A DNA stretch of 64,000 bases from Kitasatospora albolonga. GTDB taxonomy: Bacteria; Actinomycetota; Actinomycetes; Streptomycetales; Streptomycetaceae. The translations under genes were made by a program, and so were the position numbers. The stretch is from assembly GCA_002082585.1 (NCBI GenBank), contig CP020563.1, positions 310,001-374,000 on the forward strand. Reading direction: 5' to 3'. The notes beneath the pieces are model-generated. The model was not told the origin of the DNA, made no database searches, and saw only the letters and a program-made list of their open reading frames with translations. Below, piece after piece: positions 10,438 through 33,141 of the stretch (position 1 is its first letter; each line of letters begins with the position of its first letter).

Positions 10438-10499
10438 GGAGGACCTCGGTGTCTCTGGGCCCAGCCGCGGAGCCCGTCGTACGGTTCCCGGCCCCGGGT

Positions 10500-10690
10500 G
10501 CGGGGCGGGTGCCAGCAGGTCTTCGGACTCGGGTTCATCCGGGCGGGACGCCTTCCCGGAGCAGGTGGTGCTCCAGTGGCCGTGGCCCCGCCCGTCCCCC
10601 TCACCGCTGCGCGTCAGTTCCGGTTTCGCACCGGATTCCCTGACCCCGTCGCTGGGGTTCGACTGGCCCCGGCAAGCTATCACGGGGCTT
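10500..10690 (-). promoter_or_regulatory. Cobalamin (AdoCbl) riboswitch
   Basis: Reading the minus strand, GCCGGGGCCAGTC is followed by GTCAGGGAATCCGGTGCGAA, ACCGGAACTGACGCGCAGCG, a variable G-rich region, and near the 3' end GAGTCCGAAGACCTGCTGGC. These match the conserved GGGAA...GGTG core and the closing CCGAAGACCTGC segment of cobalamin riboswitches. It ends about 70 nt before the btuF start codon, so bound cobalamin probably represses the uptake operon. Confidence 0.92.
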
Positions 10691-23706: not shown

Positions 23707-23756
23707 CGCCGGGTTCTGCTTCGCTACGGTTCGCCGGGTTCCGCTTCGCTACGGGT
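23707..23756. repeat. 25-bp tandem duplication at the 3' end of the GH87-type gene
   Basis: Two adjacent copies starting CGCCGGGTT and containing GCTTCGCTACGG differ at two positions. The second copy overlaps the last codons and stop of the glucanase gene; the first lies just after it. Confidence 0.7.
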
Positions 23757-26700
23757 TGATGTCGATCCGGAAGGTGGAGGTGGTGTTCCGGATGTCCTGG
23801 GCGTTGCCGCTGAGCCTCAGCCGGTTGAAGGTGACCTCGCCGACCGCGGGCCCCTGCCCCGCCTCCGGCATCTCGTTGGCCCAGAGTCCGAAGCCGGACT
23901 TGGCGTCGAAGGCGTCACCGCTCTTGCGCGCACCGGAGATGGAGATGTCGGTGAGCACGGTGTCCTTGATCGGGAACTGCGGCTGTCCGCCGACGTAGTT
24001 CGTCTGGAACATGATCCCGCTGTACGTCGGATCGACGATGTCCACGTTCGAGATCCGGATGCCCTGGAACACCTTGGAGGCGGAGAAGAGCCAGATCCCG
24101 GGGAAGGTCTGCGATCCCCAGAAGTGGCCGCCGGACCGGACGATCGAGACGTTCTCGATCCTTGTCGGCCGGGTCCCGAAGCCGTTCATCGGGTAGCCGA
24201 AGTCCAGCGAGCTGACCGTGATCCCGGAGTAGACCAGGGTGTCGGCGATGTGGATGTTGCGGAAGGTGTTGTCGTAGCCGCCGTAGACGGCCACGCCCGC
24301 CGCGCGCCAGGTCAGGATCGAGGTCAGGTTCTCGTAGACGTTGTTCTTCATGTCCGCTCCCCCGGCGTCGATCGCCGAGAAGAGCGCGAAGCTGTCGTCA
24401 CCGGTGGCACGCGCCTCGTTGTTGGTCACGAGGTTGTCCGTGGACCCGTTGGTCATGTTGATGCCGTCGGCGAACATGTTGCGGATGCGGGAGTTCCTGA
24501 TGGTGATGTTGTCGGTGTTGGCGCCCCAGTAGAGGCACACCATGTGCTCGTTCCAGATGTTGTCGATGACGATGTCCGACACATTGGCGAAGTCGAACAC
24601 CTTGCCGGGTCCGTCGATGCGGGAGGTGTAGTTGCCGAAGTAGGCGAAGTTCGCGAACGAGGACCCCTTGGCACTGGCCTCGGCCCGGAAGCCGATGTCG
24701 GTGTTGTCCTGTGTGGCGGGGGCGTTGAACCGGGTGTACCAGGGCCCGGCGCCGACCACCTCGACGGCCTTGCCGTACACCTGGAACTTGCTCGCCGTGC
24801 TGTACTCCCCCGGCGGCAGGTAGACGCCGGCCAGGTTTCCGGTGGTGTCCATGCGGACCCGGTCCAGGGCGTTCTGGACGTCCTGGTGGGTGAACCCGGC
24901 GGGCACGGTGTAGGTGGCGGGGTCCGGGTTGGCGACCGGTGCGACCTGCTCCAGACTGATGAAGTCGATCGCGTACGTGGTGGAGTTGGCGGCGTCCTTC
25001 TGGAGCCGGATCTTGGCTCCCGCCGGGACGGTCCGGCCCAGCATGACGTTGGCCTCGTCGTAGATGTGGCGGGGTGCCCCGGCGCTCGGGGAGTTGCCGG
25101 GCGCGGCCTCGTTCCCGTACAGCCAGGCGTACTTGGAGGTGAGGTCGATCGCCTTGAGGAAGGTGCCGTCCACGTAGATGTTCAGCGTGGAGTCGATGCC
25201 CCCGCCGCCCGGGGCGTCCGGGATGGAGAACCGGGTGACCAGGGTGTTGGTGGACTTGCGGGTGGTGAACTCCACGTAGTTGCCGGTGCTGTCGAGGGTG
25301 ACGGCCTTGCGGCCCGACGCCTCGCCCGCGATGTCGCCGACGGTCCTGTTGGGGCCGACGACCCGGGCGCCGCCGCCCGTGGTGCCGTCCTCCGCCTCGT
25401 ACATGTCGTACGGCATGTGGGCGCCGCGTCCGACGAAGAGGGGTTCGGTGGAGGTGTTGTTCTCGCGCTTGACGGGGAGTTCGTTGGCGTCGGCCGCGAG
25501 GACGGTGCGCAGGGTGTACGAGCCGTTGGCGGCGGTCCAGGTGCCGAGGGTGACGGGTGCGGTGGTGGCGCCCGGGGCGATGGTCCCGTTGTGTGCTCCG
25601 GTGAAGGTCTTCACGGTGGCGCCCCGGGAGTCGATGAGCGTGAGCGTGATGCCGTGGCCGCCGCTCGCGGAGGCGATGGTGCCCTGGTTCCTGATGGCGA
25701 CGGAGAAGGTGACCGTGTCTCCGGCGGCCGGGGCGGAGGGCGAGGTGGTGACGGCCGCCGCGACCAGGTCGGAACTGGAGACCGGCCGCACGACCAGCGG
25801 GGAGGCGGCCGTGTAGGTGTTGTCGGTCTCGTTCTGCTCGATGATCTCGTTCTCCGGGTCGGCGACCGCGCTCAGGACGTAACTGCCCGCGGCCTGGGCG
25901 CCGATGGATGCGCTGGCCTGGGTGGAGGCACCGGCGGCCAGGGCGCCGACACTGCCGGTGGCGACCTTGGAGCCGCCGAGCCGGAACTCGACCTTGCTCG
26001 CCGGGGCGGCGAGCGCGCCGGAGTTGCGGACGGTGGCGGTCAGGGTGATGGCGTCGGACTCGACCGGGGTGGCGGGCGACGCGGTGATGCCGGTGATCCG
26101 GAGGTCGGGGTTGGCCGCCGGGGCGCCCAGCACCTGGAACTCGGCGACCTGGCCCGCGCCGGAGCCGCTGTTGGCGGTGAACTTCAGCTGGACGTCGGCG
26201 ATACGGGCGGCGACCGGGATGGTCACCGTGTTGCCGCTCGCCGGGCTGAAGGCGTAGTCCCGGGCCGCGACCAGGGAGTTGAAGGAGGAGGAGCTCTGCT
26301 CCCGGCCCAGGACCTCGATGCGCTGGGTGCGCGGGCCCCAGCTGCTGTCCGGGTTGAGCTTGACGACGACGCTCTGTGTGTCGGCGTTGGAGCCGAGCCG
26401 GACGGTGAGCGTGTTCGGGTAACTCCCGCCCGCGCCCTCCCAGTAGGTGGCGGTGCTGTTGTCGTTGGCGTGGGCGGCGACGTAGGTGTGCACCACCGAG
26501 GAGGCCGTGATCGGCTTGTTGACCGCGAGGTTGGAGGCGGCGCCCGTGGAGCCGTTGCGGGTCACGGTGTTGCTGTCGGTGGAAACGTTTCCGGCCGCGT
26601 CCTTGGCCCGGACGGTGTAGCTGACCGTGGCGGTGGCCGGCTGGGTGTCGGTGTACGTCAGCACGTTGCCCGCGACCGAGCCGCGCAGCACGTTGTTGGC

Positions 26701-28038
26701 GTGGATGTCGTACCCGGTGACGCCCTTGTTGTCGGTGGACGGCTGCCAGCTGAGCCGGATCTGCCCGGCGGCCGGCTCGGTGAACGCGAGCGCGGTGGGG
26801 GCGGTGGGTGCCTGGGTGTCGCCCGTGTCGCCGGTCCGGGTGACGGTGTTGCTGTCGGGCGAGACGTTGCCCGCCGCGTCCCGGGCGCGCACATGGTAGG
26901 TGACGGTCTGCCCGGCAGGGCGGGTGTCGGTGTAGGTGGTGACGTCGCCCGCGACGGAGGCCAGCAGGGTGTTGTTGGCGTAGATGTCGTAGCCGGTGAC
27001 GCCGGTGTTGTCCGTGGCGGCCTTCCAGGTCAGCCGGATCTGGCCGGTGGCGGGCTCGGTGAACGCCAGGTCGGCCGGTGCGGTGGGGGCCTGCGTGTCG
27101 CCGGTGGCGGGGCCGTAGACCTCCAGCTCGGCCAACTGGGCTGAAGGGCTACCGGTGTTGGCGGTGACCAGGACGCGGACGTACCGGGTGGTCGTGGGAT
27201 CGAAGGAGATCGTCACCGACTGGCCGCCCGCCGCGTCGAAGCGGTAGTCCTTGGAGGCGGTCAGGTCGGTGAACTCCGTCCCGTTGGCGGAGGCTTGGAG
27301 TTTCAGCGTCTGACTGCGCGCCGCCCAGCCGTCGGGGAGCCGCAGAACGATCCGGTCCACGCGGAGCGAGGAGCCGAGGTCGGCCTCGATCCACTGCGGG
27401 AAGGCGTTCTCCCGGCTCTCCCAGTAGCTGGCCCGGTTGCCGTCGTTGGCGTGGGCGGCGACGTGACTCCCGTTGCCGCTGCTGGCCTTGAGGGTCTTCC
27501 CGGCGGCGAGGTTGCCCGACGAGGCGGCGGACGACCGGACCTCCAGCTCGGAGAGCTGGGCGGCCTGCCAGCCGGTGTTGGCGGTGATGTGCACCCGGAC
27601 GAAGCGGGTCAGGGTGGCCGGGAAGGTCACCTTCACCGTGTTGGCGGCCCCCGGGGTGAAGGAGTACGCCGCCGGACTCTTCAGCGTCGCGAAGCCGGTG
27701 CCGTCCGCGCTGCCCTGGAGGGACAGCGTCTGCGTTCGGCTCTCCCAGGACGGCGGGAGCTTCAGGGTCACCTCGTCGACCCGGGCCGCCGAGCCGAGAT
27801 CGGTCTGCACCCACTGGGGCAGGCTGCCGCCCGCGCTCTCCCAGTACGTCGACGCGTTGCCGTCGGTGATGTTGGGGGCGGGGTACTCCGCATGGGCGCT
27901 GCTCGCGGCCGCGGCCCGGCCCGCGGCGAGGTTGGGGCCGTCGGCGGCCGAGGCGGCGAGCGACGGCACGCCGATCATCAGAAGACTGGTGGCGACCACG
28001 GCGGATATCGCCCGCCATCTCCAGCGTAGGGCTCTCAT
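23749..28038 (-). CDS. Secreted multidomain GH87-type alpha-1,3-glucanase / mycodextranase
   Basis: A 1429-residue exported enzyme. Order: signal peptide (1-32); two discoidin-like domains (about 33-310), each with a YWES motif; two fibronectin III repeats (about 315-495) with near-identical GVTGYDI segments; a third discoidin-like domain (about 500-640); two CARDB-like domains (about 645-870); a CBM35-like domain starting MYEAEDGTTGGGARV (about 880-1040); and a C-terminal right-handed beta-helix (1045-1429). In the helix, Asp1191 (FADGIN) and Asp1214/Asp1215 (ATGDDSF) are 23 and 24 residues apart, the spacing I recall for the GH87 catalytic aspartates. Likely substrate: fungal or oral alpha-1,3-glucan or nigeran. 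GGGGAG precedes the ATG. Confidence 0.82.
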   Translation of the reverse strand: MRALRWRWRAISAVVATSLLMIGVPSLAASAADGPNLAAGRAAAASSAHAEYPAPNITDGNASTYWESAGGSLPQWVQTDLGSAARVDEVTLKLPPSWESRTQTLSLQGSADGTGFATLKSPAAYSFTPGAANTVKVTFPATLTRFVRVHITANTGWQAAQLSELEVRSSAASSGNLAAGKTLKASSGNGSHVAAHANDGNRASYWESRENAFPQWIEADLGSSLRVDRIVLRLPDGWAARSQTLKLQASANGTEFTDLTASKDYRFDAAGGQSVTISFDPTTTRYVRVLVTANTGSPSAQLAELEVYGPATGDTQAPTAPADLAFTEPATGQIRLTWKAATDNTGVTGYDIYANNTLLASVAGDVTTYTDTRPAGQTVTYHVRARDAAGNVSPDSNTVTRTGDTGDTQAPTAPTALAFTEPAAGQIRLSWQPSTDNKGVTGYDIHANNVLRGSVAGNVLTYTDTQPATATVSYTVRAKDAAGNVSTDSNTVTRNGSTGAASNLAVNKPITASSVVHTYVAAHANDNSTATYWEGAGGSYPNTLTVRLGSNADTQSVVVKLNPDSSWGPRTQRIEVLGREQSSSSFNSLVAARDYAFSPASGNTVTIPVAARIADVQLKFTANSGSGAGQVAEFQVLGAPAANPDLRITGITASPATPVESDAITLTATVRNSGALAAPASKVEFRLGGSKVATGSVGALAAGASTQASASIGAQAAGSYVLSAVADPENEIIEQNETDNTYTAASPLVVRPVSSSDLVAAAVTTSPSAPAAGDTVTFSVAIRNQGTIASASGGHGITLTLIDSRGATVKTFTGAHNGTIAPGATTAPVTLGTWTAANGSYTLRTVLAADANELPVKRENNTSTEPLFVGRGAHMPYDMYEAEDGTTGGGARVVGPNRTVGDIAGEASGRKAVTLDSTGNYVEFTTRKSTNTLVTRFSIPDAPGGGGIDSTLNIYVDGTFLKAIDLTSKYAWLYGNEAAPGNSPSAGAPRHIYDEANVMLGRTVPAGAKIRLQKDAANSTTYAIDFISLEQVAPVANPDPATYTVPAGFTHQDVQNALDRVRMDTTGNLAGVYLPPGEYSTASKFQVYGKAVEVVGAGPWYTRFNAPATQDNTDIGFRAEASAKGSSFANFAYFGNYTSRIDGPGKVFDFANVSDIVIDNIWNEHMVCLYWGANTDNITIRNSRIRNMFADGINMTNGSTDNLVTNNEARATGDDSFALFSAIDAGGADMKNNVYENLTSILTWRAAGVAVYGGYDNTFRNIHIADTLVYSGITVSSLDFGYPMNGFGTRPTRIENVSIVRSGGHFWGSQTFPGIWLFSASKVFQGIRISNVDIVDPTYSGIMFQTNYVGGQPQFPIKDTVLTDISISGARKSGDAFDAKSGFGLWANEMPEAGQGPAVGEVTFNRLRLSGNAQDIRNTTSTFRIDINP

Positions 28039-29590: not shown

Positions 29591-30709
29591 TCAGCCGGAC
29601 AGCGCAACGCCCGTCGTGAGCTCCAGATCGGCCAGTTCCCGGTCGGGATCGGCCCCGGGGACGTGGTGCGTCCAGCTGCCGACCGCCACTTCGGCGGTGA
29701 TGCCGGGCCCGAATCCGGCGATCATGCCCTGGGCCGATTCGGCCGCTCCCCCGTCGTCGAAGAGGCGCGCGAGGGCGTCGAAGACGACGGAGCTGGCGAT
29801 GTTGCCGCGTTCGGTGAGGGTGGCCCGGCTGTAGCGGAACATCTCCATCGGCAGTTCGAGGTAGTGGCAGAGGTCGTCCAGGATGCGCGGGCCGCCCGCG
29901 TGGATGATGAAGAAGTCCATGGCCGGGACCGCCCAGCCGTGCAGGTCGACGATGTCCTTCAGGACCGGCGCGAGCATCTCCATGGTGCCGGGCACGCGCT
30001 TGTCGAGCAGGAAGTGGAATCCGGTGTCGCGGACGGCGTACGAGATCCAGTCCTCGGTGTCGGGCACCAGATGGGAGCCGTTGCGCTCCAGTTTCATCCC
30101 GGTGCCGCCCTGTCCCCGGACGACGGCGGCGGAGACGGCGTCCCCGAACAGGCCGTTGGAGAGCAGCGATCCGACGCCGATGTCGGTGGGCTGGTAGCAG
30201 AGCGAGCAGAACTCGCAGGAGACGATGAGGACGTTGGAGTCGGGGTAGGCACGGCAGAAGTCGTGCGCCCGGTTGATCGCCGCGCCGCCGGCCGCGCAGC
30301 CGAGCTGGGCGATGGGCAGTTGTCTGGTCTCCGGTCCGAACCCCATGGTGTTGATGAGCCAGGCGGTCAGCGAGGGCATCATGAAGCCCGTGCAGGAGAC
30401 GTAGACGATGAGGTCGATGTCGGCCGGTTCGGTTCCGGCGTTGGCGAGGGCCTGTCGTACGACTTCGGGGACCCGGGTCTTGGCCTCGGCCTCGTACACC
30501 TGGTTGCGGAGCTCGAAGCCGGGGTGCTTGAGGGTCTCCTCGATCGGCCGCACCAGGTGCCGGGTCTGGACCCCGGTGTTCCGGATGAGCCTCAGGACCA
30601 GGTCCCGCTGGGGGTGCCCGTGGTGGGTCTCCCGGGCCAGCTCCAGGGTCTGCTGCATCGTGATGACGTGTTCGGGCACAGCGATGGCCGGTCGGCACAG
30701 GGTCGCCAT
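29591..30709 (-). CDS. rppA: RppA type III polyketide synthase (1,3,6,8-tetrahydroxynaphthalene synthase)
   Basis: A 372-residue chalcone-synthase-like enzyme that makes tetrahydroxynaphthalene from five malonyl-CoA. The catalytic triad is Cys138 (QLGCAAGG), His270 (FIIHAGG) and Asn303 (RGNIASS), at the positions known for Streptomyces RppA. Cys106 in YVSCTGFM lies in the active-site region. GAGGAGA precedes the ATG. The upstream P450 gene, 34 nt away on the same strand, is the usual partner; together they give flaviolin-derived or HPQ-type melanin pigments that protect mycelium. Confidence 0.95.
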   Translation of the reverse strand: MATLCRPAIAVPEHVITMQQTLELARETHHGHPQRDLVLRLIRNTGVQTRHLVRPIEETLKHPGFELRNQVYEAEAKTRVPEVVRQALANAGTEPADIDLIVYVSCTGFMMPSLTAWLINTMGFGPETRQLPIAQLGCAAGGAAINRAHDFCRAYPDSNVLIVSCEFCSLCYQPTDIGVGSLLSNGLFGDAVSAAVVRGQGGTGMKLERNGSHLVPDTEDWISYAVRDTGFHFLLDKRVPGTMEMLAPVLKDIVDLHGWAVPAMDFFIIHAGGPRILDDLCHYLELPMEMFRYSRATLTERGNIASSVVFDALARLFDDGGAAESAQGMIAGFGPGITAEVAVGSWTHHVPGADPDRELADLELTTGVALSG

Positions 30710-30743
30710 GGGTTCTCCTCGTATCTGGGAGCGGAGGCGCCCG

Positions 30744-32024
30744 TCACCATGTGACGGGCAGCGCGAGCGGGTAACGCCAGATGGACGTGGTGTTCCACCG
30801 GATGTCCTCGGGTTCGGCGTCGAGGCGCAGGCCAGGGAAGCGGGCCAGCAGCGTGGCGAAGGCCACCTCCAGCTCCATGGTGGCGAGCGGCGCCCCCAGG
30901 CAGTGGTGGGAGCCCCAGCCGAAGGTCATGTGCGGGATGGACGGCCGGTCGGGGTCGAGCTCGTCGGGGCGGTCGAACTTGGCGGAGTCCCGGTTGGCCG
31001 TCAGGTACGACACATGGACGAGGTCACCGGCCCTGATGGTGACCCCGCCCAGCTCCACGTCCTCCGTCGCGACCCGGGGGATGCCGACGCCCTTGCGGAA
31101 GGGGATGTACCGCAGCAGCTCCTCGATCGTGCGGGGCAGCCGCTCGGGTTCGGTCTGGAGCGTCTTGAGGAGGCCGGGCCGGGTGAGCAGGGTGTAGGCG
31201 ATGTTGCCGAGTTCGTAGGTGGTGGTGTCCTGGCCGGTGATGAGCAGGACCATCGCCATGACGGCGAGTTCCTTGTCGTCGAGCAGTTCGTCGCCGTCGC
31301 GGGCGGTGGCCAGGGTGCTGATGAGGTCCTGGCCCGGGGAGCGGCGGCGCTCGGCGGTCAGCTCGGTGAAGTAGCCGCGCAGTTCGGCCTTGGCCCGTAC
31401 GGCGTCCTCCTTGCCCGCCGCCCCGACGTTCATCATCGTCATGGCGTGGGCGCGGAGCCAGGGGCGGTCGGCCTCGGGGATGTCGAGCGCCTCGCAGATG
31501 GTGATGAGCGGCAGCGGCGAGGAGACCCGGGCGACGAAGTCGGCGGGTGAGCCCTCCGCCTCCATCCCGTCGAGCAGCCGGTCAACGACGCGCTGGGTGC
31601 CCGCCCGCATCTGCTCGACGCGGCGCGGGGTGAAGCTCTTGGCGACCAGGCTGCGCAGCCGGCTGCTGGCGGGCGGGTCCATGAGGTTGATGGACTCGGC
31701 CTGGACGATCGGTTCCGGGGTCATCCGGGGGAAGTCCCGGCCGAGTACGGCGGCGCGGCTGAAGCGCCGGTCGGTGGTGACCGTCCGGACGTCCTCGTAC
31801 CGGGTGACGAGCCATGCCTCGTCCTCGCCGTACGCCATACGGATGCGGGAGACGGGCTCCTCGGTCAGCAGTTCCTTCAGCTGGGGGTCGAACTCCAGTT
31901 GGTGTGCGAAGTCGAAGGGGCAGCTCCGTACGGTTTCCCTGTCCTGCGCCGAGAGGCTCTGCGCCGGGGTGTTCCGCGCGGAGGGGTTCTGCGCCGAGGC
32001 GTGTCGGACCGAGGTGTTCTCCAC
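30744..32024 (-). CDS. Cytochrome P450, CYP158/P450mel-like partner of RppA
   Basis: A 426-residue soluble P450 with the oxygen-binding helix LITGQDTTTYE, the ExxR segment EELLRYIPF, and the haem loop FGWGSHHCLGAPLA with Cys375. Known partners of RppA couple or oxidise flaviolin or tetrahydroxynaphthalene. The GTG at 32024 has GGGAG upstream. The first 28 residues (NTSVRHASAQNPSARNTPAQ and onward) are a low-complexity repeat not expected in a P450; the conserved part begins at about residue 30. It lies upstream of rppA here. Confidence 0.9.
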   Translation of the reverse strand: MENTSVRHASAQNPSARNTPAQSLSAQDRETVRSCPFDFAHQLEFDPQLKELLTEEPVSRIRMAYGEDEAWLVTRYEDVRTVTTDRRFSRAAVLGRDFPRMTPEPIVQAESINLMDPPASSRLRSLVAKSFTPRRVEQMRAGTQRVVDRLLDGMEAEGSPADFVARVSSPLPLITICEALDIPEADRPWLRAHAMTMMNVGAAGKEDAVRAKAELRGYFTELTAERRRSPGQDLISTLATARDGDELLDDKELAVMAMVLLITGQDTTTYELGNIAYTLLTRPGLLKTLQTEPERLPRTIEELLRYIPFRKGVGIPRVATEDVELGGVTIRAGDLVHVSYLTANRDSAKFDRPDELDPDRPSIPHMTFGWGSHHCLGAPLATMELEVAFATLLARFPGLRLDAEPEDIRWNTTSIWRYPLALPVTW

Positions 32025-32030
32025 CGAGGT
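31941..32030 (+). repeat. Degenerate repeat encoding the P450 N-terminus
   Basis: Units built on TCTGCGCCGAGG and TTCCGCGCGGAGG recur about every 15-30 bp. They encode the Ser/Ala/Asn/Gln-rich tail in front of the P450 fold. Confidence 0.6.
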
Positions 32031-32149
32031 TCTCCCAATGACCGGTTCGGGGGTGTCAGACCGTCCCGGCTCCGGGCCCGGGAACAGACCTCCCCTGTGT
32101 CCCCCGTCACCCTGCGAAACATGCAGTTACGCTCCGCAGTCAGCCGATA

Positions 32150-32312
32150 GGGGGTGCCCGGCGGGTCAGGACCGGACAGGCCGCGGCGTCTGGTGCGGTG
32201 CATCGCAAGGCGCCGGAGCGTCCTCATCGCGGAGCGATTCGGGCGTTTCGGCAACGCCGCGAGGTGCCGTGCCAGGCGTCGCGGGCCCGGTCCTGACCCG
32301 CCGGGCACCCCC
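32150..32312 (+). repeat. 163-bp inverted-repeat element, structured-RNA or MITE candidate
   Basis: Perfect 26-bp arms at 32150-32175 and 32287-32312 enclose a second helix of 21 pairs (32181-32201 with 32264-32284) in which 15 pairs are Watson-Crick and six are G-T, none A-C. The apical 62 nt contain two more small hairpins, ATCGC/GCGAT (32226-32238) and GGCGTT/AACGCC (32242-32258). It fills most of the gap between the P450 and the siderophore operon. Confidence 0.75.
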
Positions 32313-32334
32313 TGGGGGTGCCCGCTCCCCCTGG

Positions 32335-33141
32335 TCAGCCGGTCAGGACGTGGTGGCGGCCGATCGGGAGCATCAGGGGCCGGCCCGAGACGGGGTCCTC
32401 GATGACGCGGCTCTCCAGGCCGAAGACCGCGCGGACGGTCTTCTCGGTCAGCACCTCGGCCGGGGTGCCGAAGGAGTGCAGCTTCCCGTCCGCGAGGGCG
32501 ATGAGGTGGTCGGCGTACCGGGCGGCGAGGTTCAGGTCGTGGAGGACCATCACGATGGTGGTGCCGCGCGAGCGGTTGAGGTCGGTGAGCAGATCGAGGA
32601 CCTCGATCTGGTGGCTGGCATCGAGGAAGGTGGTGGGCTCGTCGAGCAGGAGCAGGTCGGTCTGCTGGGCGAGGGCCATGGCGATCCAGACGCGCTGGCG
32701 CTGGCCGCCGGAGAGCTCGTCCACCGCTCGGTCGGCGAGCGGTTCGGTGGCCGTCGCCTCCAGCGCCGAGGCGACGGCGGCGTCGTCCTTCTCGTTCCAG
32801 CGGGAGAACATCGACTGGTGCGGGTGACGGCCCCGGCCGACGAGGTCGGAGACGGTGATGCCCTCGGGGGCCAGCGGGGACTGGGGCAGGAGGCCGAGCG
32901 TACGGGCCAGTTCCTTGGCGGGGAGGCGGTGCACCTCCTTGCCGTCCAGGACGACGCGGCCCTCGCGGGGTGCGAGGAGGCGGGACATCGAGCGCAGCAG
33001 GGTCGACTTGCCGCAGGCGTTGGCGCCGACGATGACCGTGATGGCGCCGGGCGGTACGGACAGGTCGAGCGAGGAGACGACCGTACGGTCTCCGTAGCCG
33101 AGCGTGAGGTGTTCGGCGGTCAGTTGGTGGTCGGTGGTCAC
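32335..33141 (-). CDS. Siderophore ABC transporter, ATP-binding protein
   Basis: A 268-residue FepC-type ATPase with Walker A VGANACGKSTLLR, Q-loop GLLPQSPLAPEGITV, signature LSGGQRQRVWIAMAL, Walker B LLLLDEPTTFLD and switch VLHDLNLAARY. The Asn-Ala-Cys within Walker A is common in the siderophore subgroup. The GTG overlaps the stop of the permease gene as GTGA (33138-33141). It ends the four-gene, iron-box-controlled operon that begins at 36279. Confidence 0.92.
   Translation of the reverse strand: MTTDHQLTAEHLTLGYGDRTVVSSLDLSVPPGAITVIVGANACGKSTLLRSMSRLLAPREGRVVLDGKEVHRLPAKELARTLGLLPQSPLAPEGITVSDLVGRGRHPHQSMFSRWNEKDDAAVASALEATATEPLADRAVDELSGGQRQRVWIAMALAQQTDLLLLDEPTTFLDASHQIEVLDLLTDLNRSRGTTIVMVLHDLNLAARYADHLIALADGKLHSFGTPAEVLTEKTVRAVFGLESRVIEDPVSGRPLMLPIGRHHVLTG

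Follow-up and report, generated by a model that had tools for sequence, protein, structure and literature searches.

Between two genes in the 64,000-nucleotide stretch of Kitasatospora albolonga DNA analysed here (the window) lies a long hairpin, and the question that it raises is what kind of element this is and whether one of its strands is selected to fold. The first-pass annotation described perfect 26-bp outer arms followed by 21 inner pairs, of which 15 are Watson-Crick and six are G-U with no A-C, and took this asymmetry for the mark of selection on a plus-strand RNA. Both structural descriptions are confirmed on the sequence, the outer arms being perfect inverted repeats (Table 1). Folded as RNA, the plus strand of the element forms one long hairpin of -157.6 kcal/mol (z -13.1) and the minus strand reaches -126.8 kcal/mol (z -8.3); none of 200 shuffles equals either value. 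Folded as DNA, the element scores -82.8 for the plus strand versus -72.4 for the minus strand. The two small hairpins that had been placed at the top are not recovered in the plus-strand minimum-energy fold, which has a single apical arm with internal loops; the branched top belongs to the minus-strand fold. A covariance model, R1, built from 49 sequences including the window element, has a single match within the window at E up to 1.

Table 1. Parts of the element and the match of the covariance model, in window coordinates
Feature	Position	Strand	Remarks
Whole element	32148..32313	+	Left boundary CCGATAGGG, right boundary CCCCCTGGG
Left outer arm (terminal inverted repeat)	32150..32175	+	Perfect
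Left inner arm	32181..32201	+	21 pairs including six G-U
Module, 5' half	32202..32212	+	ATCGCAAGGCG: mismatched A, UCGC helix, AAG loop, GCG helix
Variable apical hairpin	32213..32251	+	
Module, 3' half	32252..32263	+	CAACGCCGCGAG: CAA bulge, CGC helix, one free base, GCGA helix, mismatched G
Right inner arm	32264..32284	+	
Right outer arm (terminal inverted repeat)	32287..32312	+	Perfect
Match of covariance model R1	32176..32289	+	108 bits

The left-hand neighbour of the element is a cytochrome P450 gene (30744-32024, minus strand), and the right-hand neighbour is an ABC transporter ATPase gene (32335-33141, minus strand) with a periplasmic binding protein gene upstream of it; the latter two presumably have a siderophore role. 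Together with a gene for a type III polyketide synthase (RppA-type domain match), the cytochrome P450 gene adjoining the element occupies 29591-32024 of the minus strand. The same strand encodes, at 23749-28038, a 1429-residue protein with alpha-1,3-glucanase catalytic, F5/8 type C and CARDB domains. Within 31950-32500, a scan covering promoters of the sigma-70 type found no site resembling one, and there are 0 intrinsic terminators, that is, G+C-rich hairpins followed by a T run. A search of the whole window against Rfam gave no match at gathering score at the element, nor did searches of nine loci with relatives; a permissive search of 32100-32370 returned four matches, all far under the gathering scores. 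The sole Rfam match in the window at gathering score is a cobalamin riboswitch (10497-10682, minus strand, 92.8 bits).

The element is far from unique. The window's own genome contains several strong BLAST copies and, with the covariance model, 10 strong matches and one weak one; the model finds the family at E 1e-4 or better in 23 of 396 Actinomycetota genomes, the window's included. BLAST matches at 0.01 or better, many of them short, are present in 51 of 61 genomes, and a pattern scan of named genomes detects at least 119 stretches. Judged by title, the 119 stretches listed comprise 111 from actinobacteria, six from betaproteobacteria (Delftia, two Acidovorax, Allofranklinella, Xylophilus and one Paracidovorax assembly), one acidobacterial and one from a Spartobacteria assembly. 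All six betaproteobacterial loci and two further Allofranklinella stretches match the covariance model, and seven of these eight have an adjacent second module on the other strand, which for two of them is a weak match (E 1e-4 to 1e-3). The acidobacterial element (L168), from a Vicinamibacteria metagenome assembly placed in another phylum, has paired arms and may reflect either a wider host range or a binning error; the Spartobacteria stretch (L190) has no paired arms and is probably a chance match. One stretch comes from viral contigs, and a search of plasmids with the betaproteobacterial element gave no match. The copies also vary in size: in L060, L061 and L062 (G000 1347753, 680706 and 2059401), close to where the right inner arm begins, 44 bases that include a separate small hairpin stand in place of 5 bases of the window copy (39 more), and L092, L096, L110, L115 and L185 have different small hairpins at the corresponding place in the left arm. 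No larger version with a gene between the arms is evident around 57 elements with weak near arms. Keyword and string searches of the open-licence literature, which most subscription papers lie outside, found no description of the family, and the five papers that hold the element's letters deal, according to their titles or the start of their abstracts, with other subjects. Short, non-coding, bounded by terminal inverted repeats and present in many copies, the elements have the properties of MITEs. The early suggestion that the element could be a MITE is right as to its membership of a multi-copy, MITE-like family, and the assignment of the hairpin as one copy of a non-autonomous, MITE-like family present in actinobacteria and some betaproteobacteria is well supported.

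Candidate partners for mobility come from two other subfamilies, in which the elements share at least one end with autonomous transposons. In Allofranklinella (G063), TAGAGCGTGTTATGCACTTTT, with up to 3 mismatches allowed, occurs at 46 places in each direction. Delimited by these ends are elements of roughly 250 bp, palindromes of roughly 60 bp and one 879-bp transposon with DUF4096 and DDE_Tnp_1 domains, whose two ends differ from the 21-bp end of the short elements at 0 and 2 positions. In G019, of the Streptomyces type, an element of about 1.28 kb encodes DDE_Tnp_1, DDE_Tnp_4 and HTH_Tnp_4 domains, from which we take its transposase to belong to IS5; one of its ends is the complete CTAAGGGCTGTCCCGTAA of the short elements, and the other shares 12 bases, CTGTCCCGTAAA. 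A second gene of this transposase type is located beside the same end, CTAAGGGCTGTCCCGTAA, in G012, where a search for the far end of the transposase-bearing element found none. Shared ends and domain content make IS5-type partners a well-supported prediction for at least two subfamilies. In the subfamily of the window's genome, the elements enclosed by paired TAGGGCGTGTCCGGCGG-type ends are 206 bp long and the palindromes 59 bp; TAGGGCGTGTCCGGCGG occurs repeatedly in this genome, and the left arm of the window copy is a related end with 2 mismatches. No autonomous partner was recognised for this subfamily, and the inverted repeats around IS5-type transposases in other Streptomyces genomes yielded no clear shared ends. 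Three 59-bp palindromes (L272, L273 and L274; G000 2448899, 3516548 and 5138622) consist of two element ends with little between them and are possibly still smaller mobile units. A gene for an IS481-type transposase (L014, G000 5462038) is flanked by 40-bp palindromes that resemble the left part of the element and have the same orientation; this transposase is provisionally set aside as a candidate partner.

Orthologous sites with and without the element are found as well. At the window site, G005 has the two flanks joined directly with no element between them, and G485 lacks the element too; a plasmid copy is absent from five related plasmids (three aligned), and two plasmid queries gave no usable empty site. 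Among 94 elements, 32 have CTAG on both sides, 21 have other CTRR/YYRG ends and 41 have none that is recognised. With CTAG or its variants at these ends, target duplication is likely, bearing in mind that the end pattern used favoured inverted ends and that the empty sites are too diverged for a target-site duplication to be read. CTAG is rare in the window itself (8 occurrences versus 31 expected from trinucleotides), so that an element seeking CTAG would seldom hit coding sequence.

The inner part of the hairpin, a module that flanks the apical hairpin on both sides, follows rules of its own. In alignment A1, ATCGCAAGGCG and CAACGCNGCGAG on the two sides of the apical hairpin are gap-free, an invariance that is partly circular because most rows were picked by the module pattern. 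Conservation was re-measured on 80 copies from four genomes (20 of 57 in G025, 40 of 51 in G012, 12 of 23 in G019 and 8 of 11 in G349), mostly high-scoring rows that lean to intact copies. AAGGCG and CAACGC are both intact in 61 of these copies (11/20, 38/40, 4/12 and 8/8, respectively); the AAG and CAA motifs are not invariant. The module is conserved above the outer arms in all four genomes and above the inner arms in three, the exception being G019 (0.946 vs 0.949). The majority sequence of G349 has changes in both strands of the helix next to the AAG loop, and the helix pairs nevertheless. From one subfamily to another the ends are different, while the module can still be aligned.

A covariance analysis, proposed at first reading as a check, shows that the stem does covary. 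Across the 49 sequences, 84.4% of the cells pair versus 63.5% in shuffles, 372 cells are changed on both sides versus 145, and both-side changes occur in 33 of 40 pairs versus 29.5; the covariation score is 0.501 versus 0.164 in shuffles and at most 0.156 in slid versions. Even a wobble can be preserved through such changes: at pair 24-101, 23 of the 49 sequences have U-G and 15 have G-U. Beside the CAA bulge, as judged by eye, GA faces GA in some sequences and two Watson-Crick pairs are present in others.

The asymmetry between G-U and A-C is centred on the same module. It was counted on one representative from each of 25 clusters, 57 of 151 pattern matches having been dropped for an arm score under 40, a score that weighs G-U and A-C equally. 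The G-U:A-C ratio is 77:1 within 10 nt of the module, 38:0 at 10-20 nt, 18:7 at 20-30 nt, 27:10 at 30-45 nt and 45:33 past 45 nt; the contrast between 133:8 within 30 nt and the outermost class is significant (Fisher p 7.5e-11). As G-U still exceeds A-C at 30-45 nt, the core passes into the outer arms without a sharp boundary, and the places of the wobbles may partly reflect the common descent of the 25 clusters. Within their first 30 positions, the representatives have 33 tandem wobbles of the form 5'-UG-3'/3'-GU-5' and 2 of the reverse form.

Within genomes, the balance was counted separately for private and for shared changes. Distinct private departures from Watson-Crick pairing in the four genomes divide 17:17 between G-U and A-C in the core and 12:18 in the outer arms, and shared departures 14:8 and 12:13, respectively. 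Counted as cells, the departures are 75:37 in the core (44:2 in G012, 31:35 in the other three genomes) and 91:88 in the outer arms (74:51 and 17:37), so that the within-genome picture is uneven, G012 and the other three genomes having different ratios. We read this as selection on propagating lineages while resident copies decay freely; G012 fits least. The first-pass annotation would have abandoned its reading if A-C changes were as frequent as G-U, and this is the case for private decay and not for the lineage-level pattern. What stands of that reading is the recurrence of the asymmetry near the module across the family, which supports plus-strand selection, apparently acting on propagating lineages; RNA is one candidate for the selected molecule, plus-strand single-stranded DNA would fit the asymmetry equally well, and the two are not distinguishable from sequence. 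Conservation of the inner module while the ends change, with probable selection on one strand along propagating lineages, is the unusual feature of this family.

With respect to the genes called by a simple purpose-written gene finder, 76 elements are located between genes, 5 inside genes and 8 at contig edges. With the two neighbouring genes as the reference, 21 elements are sense and 24 antisense (p 0.77), 22 lie between convergent genes and 9 between divergent genes. Orientation relative to replication was assessed with dnaA as the origin marker and with positions taken from the matches listed, which placed 34 of 57 copies in G025, 50/51 in G012, 8/11 in G349, 14/23 in G019, 3/13 in G004, 3/5 in G005, 3/7 in G009 and 1/2 in G015; rows on other contigs (G019 C2, G004 C1, G025 C3) were left out, as were four rows of G093, G174 and G189, two with the rule and two against it. 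Among the matches listed, the plus strand is the leading-strand template for 8 of 10 in the window's genome, 13/14 in G019, 26/34 in G025, 7/8 in G349 (taken as circular), 9/15 in G045 as linear (8/15 as circular), 3/3 in each of G004, G005 and G009, and 0/1 in each of G015 and G031. G012, with 25 of the 50 matches listed, has no orientation bias. Without G012, the sum over the matches listed is 77:20 (p 4.6e-9), a test on data that overlap the BLAST matches from which the idea arose; it takes G349 and G395 as circular and the others as linear, and becomes 76:21 with G395 linear. Again among the matches listed, adding the four rows of G093, G174 and G189 gives 79:22 (p 1.0e-8), and including G012 gives 102:45 (p 2.9e-6).

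Several explanations can be weighed against these observations. In one, propagation would depend on a folded plus-strand transcript rather than on DNA. The preference among tandem wobbles and the alternation of tandem G-A with two Watson-Crick pairs speak for such an RNA, but G-T and tandem G-A pairs form in DNA too, so that no RNA-only feature is found here. Moreover, a plus-strand transcript would run head-on to replication in most genomes counted. This explanation is a serious one and, on balance, unlikely.

Another explanation would derive everything from survival at replication. Hairpins on the lagging-strand template are prone to attack, and a filter that leaves the weaker hairpin on that template could also have made the G-U asymmetry. 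The orientation bias fits, as does the less stable fold of the minus strand, in the window copy and on average in four genomes, where the mean stability of the plus-strand DNA hairpin exceeds that of the minus strand by 5 to 11 kcal/mol. The outer arms, with little asymmetry both among the representatives and in private changes, speak against such a filter. Furthermore, in G025, the 5 copies that break the orientation rule are no different from the 15 that follow it in the energy gap between strands (-6.0 vs -6.4), and G012 combines a large gap (-10.7) with no bias. A narrower suggestion, that copies whose stronger hairpin lies on the lagging-strand template were lost once they had inserted, is the simplest reading of the orientation bias; for the same two reasons it is weak, and the filter as the sole cause is quite improbable.

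The plus-strand transcript could alternatively serve the host, as a regulator or a stabiliser of RNA kept where it is useful. Strong covariation, plus-strand wobble pairs and the location of most elements between genes would agree with such a role, but there is no preference in gene orientation, the distribution is patchy and no promoter-like site of the scanned sigma-70 type is present. In particular, an RNA serving the host from each insertion is unlikely because the private changes of resident copies lack a G-U preference, and a host role in general is, in our estimate, remote. A plain palindromic MITE, with the hairpin a mere consequence of inverted repeats and the G-U pattern inherited by chance, is no less improbable: no function has to be assumed for a palindrome of 165 bp and private changes show no strand preference, but the module remains alignable across differing ends, is for the most part better conserved than either set of arms and retains a wobble in both orders at one pair.

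The explanation that we favour, and consider probable although well short of secure, is an IS5-mobilised, MITE-like element with a transferable module that needs its plus-strand fold to propagate. The element would be moved in trans by IS5-type DDE transposases acting on its terminal repeats, and the inner hairpin would be the transferable module, in which the loop pattern is conserved and certain places favour wobble pairs. A requirement for the plus-strand fold during propagation would result in selection along spreading lineages and neutral decay in residents. The module most likely acts in cis on mobility, and its active form could be a folded single strand made at replication, or RNA, presumably recognised by a protein; the fold apparently aids the spread of the element rather than serving the host. 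A more far-reaching version, in which a portable, wobble-marked, one-strand hairpin sits on interchangeable transposon ends across phyla, is bound by a protein and couples spread to replication, is put forward tentatively and should be regarded as rather doubtful. If it is true, a host or transposon protein reads a folded single strand, and the spread of the element is tied to DNA replication. The family itself offers a testable case of a MITE core, beyond its ends, under structural selection, and it ties hairpin elements to the direction of replication in Streptomyces. The type of mismatch tolerated on each strand serves, in addition, to separate selection on the spread of an element from selection on the host.

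Among known systems, QMITE2 of Coxiella burnetii is a MITE with a strong hairpin transcript (PMC10969869). In the passages seen, it resembles the present family in having terminal repeats, a core of much the same size and a transcript that is predicted to fold very stably, and these passages are silent on strand-specific selection; the main text of that paper contains no occurrence of Streptomyces, Actinobacteria, CTAG or lagging strand. Like the MITEs mobilised by the IS5 family, the present elements are short, non-coding, numerous, mostly intergenic and present or absent between relatives, and in two subfamilies their inverted-repeat ends are common to a transposon of the same genome. Unlike those MITEs, the family keeps a covarying inner module while its ends switch between subfamilies with different transposases, and this module, of which one element may have two in opposite orientations, appears to be under wobble selection on one strand.

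Two further groups of elements can be compared with respect to the folded strand. REP/REPIN elements are intergenic palindromes that are repeated in the genome and probably act in the form of a folded single strand; they have paired units in opposite orientation, a tyrosine transposase partner (RAYT) and a short GTAG-type hairpin. The present family shares with them palindromic intergenic repeats and paired opposite units, but its elements are about 165-250 bp long and bounded by repeats that match DDE transposons. Integron attC sites and the ends of IS200/IS605 are imperfect hairpins in which extra-helical bases mark one strand and which are linked to the replicating strand; in attC, R and L box motifs are recognised by the integron integrase. 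The present family likewise combines an imperfect hairpin and strand-marking bases with a link to the replication strand, but its plus strand is mostly the leading-strand template, the opposite of the active strand in attC and IS200/IS605.
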